DNA from: Thermodesulfovibrio sp.
GTDB lineage: Bacteria; Nitrospirota; Thermodesulfovibrionia; Thermodesulfovibrionales; Dissulfurispiraceae
Length of the DNA: 34,291 nucleotides
Assembly: GCA_013824325.1 (NCBI GenBank)
Contig: PNNP01000005.1
Coordinates: 1 to 34,291 of the forward strand
Direction: 5' to 3'
The position numbers and the translations under genes are program-made. The notes under the pieces are model-generated. The model was not told where the DNA came from, made no database searches, and saw only the letters and a list, made by a program, of their open reading frames with translations. Shown here one piece after another: positions 28,345-31,924 of the stretch. Every line of letters starts with the position of its first letter. Within the stretch, counting starts at the first letter, position 1.

Positions 28345-29723
28345 ACATACCCTTCCCTGATTTAACTCCTGCTATTCCAGAGATAATCATCTCCATGGTA
28401 GCTACATTCCTGCTTATTGCAGAACTTGTAGCAAAAAACAAGAGCCCTCTTGGATATATAGGAATCGCCACAGCAGCAATTGTGATGTATCTGCTTCCTG
28501 TAAGCCGCGGGGAAACCTTTGGGGGCATGTTCATAAGCGACAGTTACAGCACATATTTTAAACTCATATTCCTGATAAACCTCATACTGACCATTCTTAT
28601 ATCACTAAAATACATACACAAGGAAAAGGCGGATTACGGCGAATATTACAGCCTTTTATTGTTTGCCACTGCCGGCATGATGCTTATGGCATCAGCAAAA
28701 GACCTGATAATCCTGTATCTTGGATTGGAATTGATGGCTTTAAGCACATATATCCTCGCCGGTATAAAAAGACATGATATAAAATCAAACGAAGCTGCCA
28801 TAAAATATTTTCTGCTTGGAGGATTCTCATCTGCATTACTTTTGTATGGAATGTCCCTGTTATACGGTATCACGACCACAACAGATATTTATAAAATAGC
28901 ACAATACCTGCAGCAAAAAGAGACTACGCCGGTATTACTGCTGAGCATGTCATTAATAGCTGTAGCCTTTGCATTCAAGATAGCAGCAGCACCGTTCCAC
29001 ATGTGGGCACCGGATGTCTATGAAGGCGCACCCACATCAGTAACCGCCTTTATGTCAGTGGGACCAAAGGCAGCAGGTTTTGCAGTCATAGGCAGGGTAT
29101 TTTATGTAGCATTTTACAACTTGCAGACAGACTGGACAGCAGTATTTATAGCAATAGCCATACTCACAATGGCAGTAGGGAATATCCTTGCCATAGTTCA
29201 GACAAACATCAAGAGAATGCTCGCTTACTCATCCATAGCACATGCTGGATATGCCCTGCTTGGAGTAATAGCAGGGACAAACGAAGGCTTGAATGCAATG
29301 ATGACATATCTTTTAATCTATGCATTCATGAACATAGGTGCATTTGCCATAGTGATACTCCTCCACAAAGGAGAGGAGATAAAGGACTATGACGGACTCG
29401 CAAAGAGCCATCCATTAGTAGCAGCTATAATGCTCGTTTTTATGTTCTCACTTACAGGCATTCCGCCTACAGCCGGATTCATCGGCAAATTCAACGTCTT
29501 CATGGCTGCCATAAACGCAGGTTACACATGGCTGGTTGTAATAGCGGTTATATTCAGCGCCATATCAGCCTACTATTACCTGAGAATAGTGATGAATATG
29601 TATATGAAAAATATGACAGAGGAAGTAAAAATAATTTCATCGCTTGCCCTTTCCGGTGCAATCTTTATTACAGTAATAGCAGTGCTCGTTATCGGAATCA
29701 TTCCCTCATTGGTGATAATTTAA
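28341..29723 (+). CDS. nuoN: NADH-quinone oxidoreductase subunit N
   Basis: Third antiporter-like subunit, next to NuoK in the membrane arm, 460 residues. Motifs are YLGLELMALSTYILAGIKR, the channel Lys region FKIAAAPFHMWAPDVYEGAP and RMLAYSSIAHAGYALLG. It is coupled to nuoM by a four-base overlap and ends the operon; a strong terminator follows 20 bp later. Confidence 0.97.
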   Translation: MNIPFPDLTPAIPEIIISMVATFLLIAELVAKNKSPLGYIGIATAAIVMYLLPVSRGETFGGMFISDSYSTYFKLIFLINLILTILISLKYIHKEKADYGEYYSLLLFATAGMMLMASAKDLIILYLGLELMALSTYILAGIKRHDIKSNEAAIKYFLLGGFSSALLLYGMSLLYGITTTTDIYKIAQYLQQKETTPVLLLSMSLIAVAFAFKIAAAPFHMWAPDVYEGAPTSVTAFMSVGPKAAGFAVIGRVFYVAFYNLQTDWTAVFIAIAILTMAVGNILAIVQTNIKRMLAYSSIAHAGYALLGVIAGTNEGLNAMMTYLLIYAFMNIGAFAIVILLHKGEEIKDYDGLAKSHPLVAAIMLVFMFSLTGIPPTAGFIGKFNVFMAAINAGYTWLVVIAVIFSAISAYYYLRIVMNMYMKNMTEEVKIISSLALSGAIFITVIAVLVIGIIPSLVII

Positions 29724-29743
29724 TACGAATCGCTTTAATACAC

Positions 29744-29783
29744 AAAAGAGGGCCGGGTTATGAAACCCGGCCCTCTTTTATTT
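29744..29783 (+). terminator. Strong intrinsic terminator of the nuo operon
   Basis: A perfect 16-bp stem (29744-29759 with 29764-29779) with the four-base loop ATGA and a GC-rich core GAGGGCCGGG; the 3' arm ends in TTTT followed by ATTT. It is flanked by A and T runs on both sides and may act in both directions. Confidence 0.93.
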
Positions 29784-29797
29784 CACTTAAATTTTTG

Positions 29798-29827
29798 TTG
29801 CTTATATTTTGTGATTTCTGTTATAAA
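29798..29827 (+). promoter_or_regulatory. Candidate promoter of the structured RNA
   Basis: TTGCTT (29798-29803) and TATAAA (29822-29827) with an 18-bp spacer, located between the nuo terminator and the RNA. The predicted start is about 29834, just before the first long stem at 29846. Confidence 0.4.
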
Positions 29828-29833
29828 TATATA

Positions 29834-30016
29834 AGAAAATTTGCCTACCCTGTCCGTGATTAAGTGGAAAAATTGATCCGGACAAATTAGATTGCAAGGG
29901 GGCCGGGTAAGGTTAACGGTGTGCATGTCTCTGAGAGGAGAAAGCCTAAGTCCCTTCAAGGCGCCCGAATTTTAAAAATGCGGATCTAATTTTCGCTACA
30001 CGACAGGGTGGGTTAA
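29834..30016 (+). ncRNA. ssrS: Structured non-coding RNA, possibly 6S RNA
   Basis: No ORF covers this stretch, but its ends fold back on each other. Stem A pairs 29846-29858 with 29999-30010 (12 bp, one bulged C). Stem B pairs 29869-29880 with 29981-29993 (12 bp, one bulged T). Inside, AAATT (29884-29888) pairs with AATTT (29968-29972), leaving open sequence on both sides. An apical GC-rich domain follows (GGGGGCC near 29918 against GGCGCCC near 29960). The size, about 175-180 nt, and the plan of long closing stem, central bubble and apical stem are those of 6S RNA, the RNA polymerase regulator. From memory, 6S RNA lies upstream of rny in some Deltaproteobacteria. The identity is inferred; a different structured RNA is possible. 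Confidence 0.5.
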
Positions 30017-30025
30017 CAATAGGAA

Positions 30026-30064
30026 TTACCGGTAAAGAATAATATCCTTATTCTCTGGCGGTAA
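30026..30064 (+). other. Two-step hairpin downstream of the ncRNA
   Basis: Outer stem TTACCG (30026-30031) with CGGTAA (30059-30064) and inner stem AGAATAA (30036-30042) with TTATTCT (30048-30054), loop TATCC. There is no T-run after it, so it is not a typical terminator. It could be a 3' processing signal of the upstream RNA or the start of the rny leader. Confidence 0.5.
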
Positions 30065-30118
30065 CTGCTATATGGTGACGTGGATGGTTGTAATCAACTG
30101 ATGAAAGATATAAAGGAG

Positions 30119-30246
30119 TTAAGGACTTGAAAAAAGTTTTTGATAATAATTGCAAAATGGACGGGTTTAACAGCCTTTTATATAAAAATAAACTCAACAT
30201 TTATGCTAACAATGTCCGGCTCCATATAAACTCTTCAAGGTCTTAA
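30119..30246 (+). other. Leader region of rny with inverted repeat and possible 39-aa small ORF
   Basis: TTAAGGACTTGAA (30119-30131) and TTCAAGGTCTTAA (30234-30246) are complementary except for two central bases, and ATGGA (30157-30161) can pair with a downstream TCCAT nested inside. A TTG at 30127, nine bases after AAAGGAG, opens a 39-codon ORF (KKVFDNNCKMDGFN ... INSSRS) ending at 30246. It resembles nothing I know. Either a regulated leader or chance is possible; together with 30247-30358 it fills the gap before rny. Confidence 0.25.
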
Positions 30247-30358
30247 ACCATCTATCTTTTTGCCTTCCACTGTCATCATTAGCGGTAAAATGTAATGGGA
30301 TTTTTTTGCCGGAATTATACCCATTGCATTACATCATGCAACAGGAGGAGATTAAGCC

Positions 30359-31924
30359 ATGAATGATACTCTGATGTATATTCTGATTGCCGTTGCTGCT
30401 GGAATTGCAAGCGGACTGGCTTTTTTCTTGATATTTAAGAAGACCCTTGAATCTCAAAAGAGCAGCATCCAGAAAGAACGGGAGCATTTATTACAGGAAG
30501 CAAAGAGAGAAGCGGATACCATCAAAAAAGAAGTTGCAATTTCTGCCAAAGATGCAGCTTATCAGGCAAAAGTTGAAGCTGAAAAAGAAATCCGGGAAAG
30601 AACAAAAGAGCTTAATCAGCTTGATAAGAGATTAAGGCAGAAGGAAGAAGTGTTCGAAAAGAAATTAGACCAGCTTGAAAGAAAGGAACATGAATTAAAC
30701 AGGAAAGAGAGGGAATACAGCTCAAGGGATAGGGTATTACAGGAAAAAGAGAACCAGTATTCACATCTCATAAAGGAACAGATGCTGACATTGGAACGGA
30801 TATCAGGGATGCGTGCAGAAGAGGCAAAGCAGGAACTCTTCAAAAAGGTTGAAGAAGATGCAAAATTCGAGGCTGCTAAACTTTCAAAAAAGATTGAGGA
30901 TGAGACAAGGGAAAATGCTGAAAAAAAAGCAAAGGAGATTATAAGCTTTGCAATTCAGCGATACGCAAGCGAGTATGTGGCAGACGCTACAATCTCTGCT
31001 GTGAGTCTTCCCAGTGACGAGATGAAAGGAAGAATCATCGGAAGGGAAGGAAGAAACATAAGGACATTCGAATCAGTTACAGGAGTTGATATCATTGTAG
31101 ATGACACACCCGAACTTGTAACCCTTTCTGCCCATGACCCCGTAAGGAGAGAGATTGCAAAAATATCACTTGAAAGACTTGTATCTGACGGAAGGATACA
31201 TCCAGCAAGAATCGAGGAAATCGTTGAAAAGGTCAAAAAAGAAGTTGAAGCAATAATAAGGGAAGAAGGGGAAAAGGCTGTATTCGACCTCGGTATCTCG
31301 GGCATACACCCTGAGCTTATAAGAACAATCGGGAGATTAAAATACAGAACCTCTTACGGTCAGAATATACTGCAGCACTCAAAAGAGGTAGCCTATTTTG
31401 CCGGAATGATGGCAGGAGAACTGGGTGTTGATATAAAACTTGCAAAACGGTCAGGACTGCTTCATGACATTGGCAAGGCTGTAGACCATGAAATGGAGGG
31501 TTCACATCAGGAGATAGGAGCAGTGCTTGCAAAAAAATACGGTGAACATGATGAAGTTATAAATGCCATCCTTGCCCACCACGGCGAGGTTGACCCGATA
31601 TGTGTTGAATCAGCCCTTGTAACAGCAAGCGATGCACTGTCTGCGGCAAGGCCCGGCGTAAGAAAGGAAAGTATAGAAAATTATCTGAAACGCCTTGAGA
31701 AACTGGAAGAACTGGCAATGTCCTTTGAAGGTGTCGAAAAATGCTATGCAATCCAGGCAGGCAGAGAAATAAGAATCATTGTAAAGCCTGAAAATGTAAA
31801 CGATGAGATGAGCGCAATGATTGCGAGGGACCTCGGGAGGAAGATTGAAACGGAATTAACATATCCGGGTCAGATAAAGGTTATGGTTATACGCGAGTCC
31901 AGATATGTTGATTATGCAAAATAA
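30359..31924 (+). CDS. rny: Ribonuclease Y
   Basis: Membrane-anchored endoribonuclease that begins mRNA decay. The 521-residue protein has an N-terminal transmembrane helix (about residues 5-25), a long Lys/Glu-rich coiled coil (about 30-200), a KH RNA-binding domain with the [15 protein letters not shown] loop near residue 225, and an HD domain with the metal-binding [12 protein letters not shown] near residue 367 and a later HHGE. Length and order match the family. A strong AGGAGG ribosome-binding site precedes the ATG. The YmdB-type phosphoesterase gene follows two bases after its stop, the usual rny neighbour. Confidence 0.97.

Follow-up and report, generated by a model that had tools for sequence, protein, structure and literature searches.

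A 6S RNA gene upstream of rny in a Thermodesulfovibrio genome and its paralogues among the Thermodesulfovibrionales

The 6S RNA gene and its surroundings

The window analysed here is a stretch of 34,291 nucleotides from Thermodesulfovibrio sp. (contig PNNP01000005.1), and all of its features described below lie on the forward (+) strand. Upstream of rny the gene order runs from nuoN through a terminator to a 6S RNA gene, and then to rny itself (30359-31924), a neighbour conserved in synteny and assigned to RNase Y by its Pfam domains RNase_Y_N, KH_1 and HD. The nuo genes upstream end in an intrinsic terminator (29744-29779) made of a 16-pair stem and a following T run. Beyond it lies a promoter read by eye at 29798-29827 (-35 element TTGCTT at 29798-29803, an 18-nt spacer and an extended -10 element TGtTATAAA at 29819-29827), with a predicted transcription start near 29834. 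A simple promoter scan did not list this TTGCTT/TGtTATAAA site; the same elements stand upstream of the 6S RNA in most relatives, in agreement with the candidate promoter after a strong terminator put forward in a preliminary description of this DNA. The 6S stretch is unlikely to contain a gene of at least 60 aa; the 111-aa frame at 29528-29863 overlaps nuoN in another reading frame. A search for tRNA and tmRNA found none. A zapA or other gene between 6S and rny was considered and rejected, as 30019-30358 holds no frame of at least 60 aa.

An Rfam covariance-model search of the window matched the 6S/SsrS family (RF00013) at 29839-30018 with 53.5 bits, above the curated cut-off of 46.4 bits, and the match spans model positions 1-187, the full model. 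This is the sole Rfam match above threshold in the whole window; other families gave sub-threshold matches alone, nearly all at the upstream terminator region. The score is a modest one, on the low side for the order Thermodesulfovibrionales; RF00013 matches were found in 57 of 60 relatives and exceeded the cut-off in 56. A second RF00013 match was not found in the window's genome, which is 66.6% complete. The preliminary description, which had drawn the limits at 29834-30016 (within 5 nt of the Rfam match), had favoured 6S RNA over a new RNA and proposed a search of this kind. Its first choice is borne out by the end-to-end match above the cut-off, the single genomic locus and the covariation in relatives, and its alternative, a new RNA, can be dropped for this stretch, although the element that follows is structured and unlisted. 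It had also pointed to some Deltaproteobacteria as having 6S RNA next to rny; a deltaproteobacterial placement of this DNA would be wrong, because the best relatives of rny are from Nitrospirota, including Thermodesulfovibrionales.

Both of the end-joining stems noted earlier appear in the fold of the stretch, which has a minimum free energy of -66.7 kcal/mol compared with -47.7 kcal/mol (sd 4.25) for shuffled sequences (z -4.47; none of 200 shuffles was as good). The closing stem, stem A, pairs 29843-29858 with 29999-30013 and contains one bulge, while stem B pairs GATCCG (29875-29880) with CGGATC (29981-29986), and an A/T-rich helix (29863-29870/29990-29997) sits below it. In an alignment of 53 rny-type copies from relatives, which was not fitted to the structure, 94.2% of the cells of stem A, stem B and the apical arm are paired, and half of the pairs (16/32) show compensatory changes on both sides. 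Ten of these pairs lie in the apical arm and three in each of stems A and B, the two stems whose lack of such changes would, according to the preliminary description, have counted against the RNA. None of 500 alignment shuffles reached any of five covariation measures, a comparison that is inflated by the relatedness of the sequences. Slid versions of the structure pair in 36-47% of cells, the unslid version being favoured here by the origin of its pairs, since the alignment's own RNAalifold consensus supplied those of the closing stem and apical arm. Two loci (L118 and L147, from genomes G047 and G035) have an rny-type 6S RNA with an enlarged apical part, giving a length of about 245-249 nt rather than about 185 nt.

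In length, and in having a closing stem, a central bubble and an apical arm, the window RNA agrees with RF00013 6S RNAs. Of the conserved motifs around the bubble and the apical arm, GGTGTGCA and AAGCCTAA are present, but the nearly invariant CCCAC has been lost, as has the small hairpin in the 3' strand of the bubble, both of which are kept by most relatives in the alignment of rny-type copies. The window RNA differs, too, in adjoining rny and an unlisted rod. The identification is based on covariance-model membership, the conserved closing stem, the apical arm, the bubble-flanking helix, covariation, the promoter block and the linkage to rny, and we put the probability that the stretch upstream of rny is a 6S RNA gene at about 0.96. 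The window RNA is an ordinary member of the known 6S family, with an unusual neighbour.

A predicted product RNA and a proposed bubble collapse

6S RNA is known to tie up RNA polymerase. By analogy with this biology, the window RNA would imitate an open promoter and so sequester the housekeeping polymerase, which on recovery would copy a short product RNA from a template with stem B 5' strand GATCCG as its putative core. The predicted start lies opposite C29883, yielding 5'-GUCCGGAUC..., with GG at positions 5/6, a reported feature of 6S RNAs (PMC8414754). Synthesis of the product RNA would open stem B (GATCC/GGATC), and the freed 3' strand would then pair with AAATTAGATT, leading to bubble collapse and release of the enzyme. 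Product-RNA-induced collapse of this type has been described in other 6S RNAs (PMC4227106).

The 3' strand CGGATCTAATTT (29981-29992) has two alternative partners, GATCCG (29875-29880) or AAATTAGATT (29884-29893), the latter forming ten base pairs; both partners are strongly conserved and both pairings fit the alignment. The predicted collapse helix joins the conserved 5' arm AAATTAGATT to the conserved 3' arm GATCTAATTT (29983-29992). It formed in 46 of 50 sequences when the 14-nt predicted template was held single-stranded, compared with 6 of 50 when folding was free, an outcome that is partly forced because blocking the template removes a competitor. The folding test thus shows that the alternative helix is built into the RNA, not that the cell uses it.

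The companion element and the link to rny

Between the 6S RNA and rny lies a structured element (30021-30279) for which Rfam gave no match. It is composed of a hairpin (30021-30070), paired by eye, which is kept in close relatives and replaced in some, and a rod of about 200 nt (30073-30279) with conserved ATAAAGGAG, the inner helix of which adopts a shifted register in the window. In seven loci (L017, L020, L022, L025, L027, L028 and L116) a repeat-like TAGTTCATAGTTGATAG...CTATGAACTA, possibly a dispersed repeat, stands in place of the first hairpin. Across 54 loci, the post-6S regions have a mean folding z of -2.61, with 70% below -2, whereas regions upstream average -0.57 (Mann-Whitney p 4e-10) and control regions, mostly coding, average 0.13 (p 2e-14); both p-values overstate independence, given that the loci are related. 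The rods recur although their sequences have strongly diverged between families. RNAalifold on MAFFT spacer alignments recovered part of the outer helices and missed the remainder of the rod because the inner helix shifts register; the rod structure is therefore taken from folds of individual sequences.

While the 6S-rny order is conserved across the Thermodesulfovibrionales, six loci (L005, L008, L015, L019, L115 and L118) retain both the 6S RNA and the rod with no adjacent rny. From this arrangement the rod appears to go with 6S and not with rny, and our best guess is that it is a processing or stability element for the 6S RNA. A less probable view, which we consider unlikely while still giving it some weight, is that the element lies outside the 6S transcript unit, serving rny as a leader or holding a short coding frame that starts at TTG 30127. 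It does adjoin rny on the upstream side in most loci, and by eye several relatives have a frame of about 35-39 codons preceded by AAGGAG; the six loci in which it stays with 6S away from rny nevertheless disfavour a leader. The 39-aa TTG-start frame was likewise set aside, since a by-eye count of substitutions between L025 and L028 found them mostly amino-acid-changing with pairing kept, which argues for RNA structure over coding.

No terminator-like site was found between the 6S RNA and rny, so a single 6S-rod-rny transcript from which 6S is excised is likely. The 6S RNA would form the 5' part of this transcript and RNases would cut it out, as happens to the joint ssrS-ygfA transcript of E. 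coli. Here, as in E. coli, the 6S RNA probably heads a transcript that continues into a protein gene; unlike in E. coli, that downstream gene is rny and a structured element stands in between. In B. subtilis, RNA polymerase has been reported to bind rny mRNA (PMC11077062).

Two further accounts of the RNA itself fare less well. The lost CCCAC motif and low score of the window copy, together with the additional 6S paralogues of relatives and the 66.6% completeness of this genome, would fit a decaying 6S RNA whose role has passed to other paralogues; the promoter, closing stem, stem B and apical arm are nevertheless intact and the fold is strong, and we regard decay as very improbable. Least credible of all is the proposal that the structure is chiefly an rny 5' leader controlling RNase Y synthesis, on the model of the E. 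coli rne, rnc and pnp leaders that control synthesis of the enzymes they precede, and resembles 6S by descent or chance alone: rny does lie directly downstream with no terminator found in between, but the full-length 6S model match exceeds the cut-off, and an element expected solely where rny follows directly is kept in the six loci where it does not.

6S paralogues in rRNA leaders and elsewhere in the order

Weaker RF00013 matches in the relatives were sorted by eye into two further classes, B and C, alongside the rny-type class A. The class B paralogue (L157-L184, for example L159 at G005:C1:2241274-2241469; L137-L145, L150, L152, L199, L205 and L206) immediately precedes 16S rRNA and follows the rRNA promoter, an arrangement seen in at least 28 genomes that span several of the order's families. 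The structure obtained from twelve copies has 46 pairs, of which 18 show compensatory changes, and a covariance model built from these copies and used to search 150 genomes of the order found strong matches in about 46. In a sample of the phylum, strong matches were nearly confined to this order. A 16S start follows shortly downstream on the same strand in 27 of the best 30 class B loci, L173 and L174 included, and the count of 28 adds L170, which is the same site as L137 and has a truncated 16S start where its contig ends; L185 and L186 show no 16S start before their contigs end. Four copies (L137, L161, L162 and L173) exceed the RF00013 cut-off themselves. In the complete genome G005, class B is present on one of the two rRNA operons, where it is flanked by the promoter and a boxA-like GTTCTTTGAAAAC; the other operon lacks it. 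16S was not found in the window's own genome at 66.6% completeness.

A shortened rRNA-leader copy, L192 (G022:C65:30190-30324), is missing most of the apical arm and ends 78 nt before 16S; it is a decaying or minimal form. In another order of the same phylum, L190 and L191 (G181 and G203) are class-B-like 6S RNAs with no 16S start on the fetched stretch, and the rRNA-leader position may thus not be ancestral. The open-access literature searched contained no description of the class B position; as that search did not cover the key surveys (Barrick 2005; Wehner 2014), its novelty is provisional.

Class C (L141, L146, L148, L149, L151, L153-L156, L193, L196, L198, L201, L202, L204 and L207) is a third kind of 6S-like RNA that stands on its own; in most cases a second rod comes after it, with the form GAGCCAT...ATGGCTC and a T-rich end. 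All three classes occur together in G061, G143 and G131. More than one 6S RNA per genome is also the case for 6S-1 and 6S-2 of B. subtilis (PMC11077062); the relatives differ in that the leader of 16S rRNA holds one paralogue while another, the third, stands free with its own rod, and the window's genome in that a single 6S RNA is seen. It appears slightly better than an even chance that the Thermodesulfovibrionales possess a multi-6S system, made up of an rny-linked 6S RNA with a companion rod on the same transcript, a 6S RNA in the rRNA leader and a free-standing 6S RNA with its own rod; only the first part is visible in the genome of the window.

With the window locus, an uncultured lineage of Nitrospirota gains a well-supported 6S gene for which a product-RNA start is proposed. 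The window 6S is itself a known-family RNA, and the surprising part is the 6S RNA in the rRNA leader. Placed inside the leader of an rRNA operon, a 6S RNA would link polymerase sequestration directly to rRNA output, and, if the multi-6S reading is true, ribosome production would also yield an inhibitor of the polymerase, a direct feedback that is testable in the one complete genome that carries class B on one rRNA operon and not on the other.
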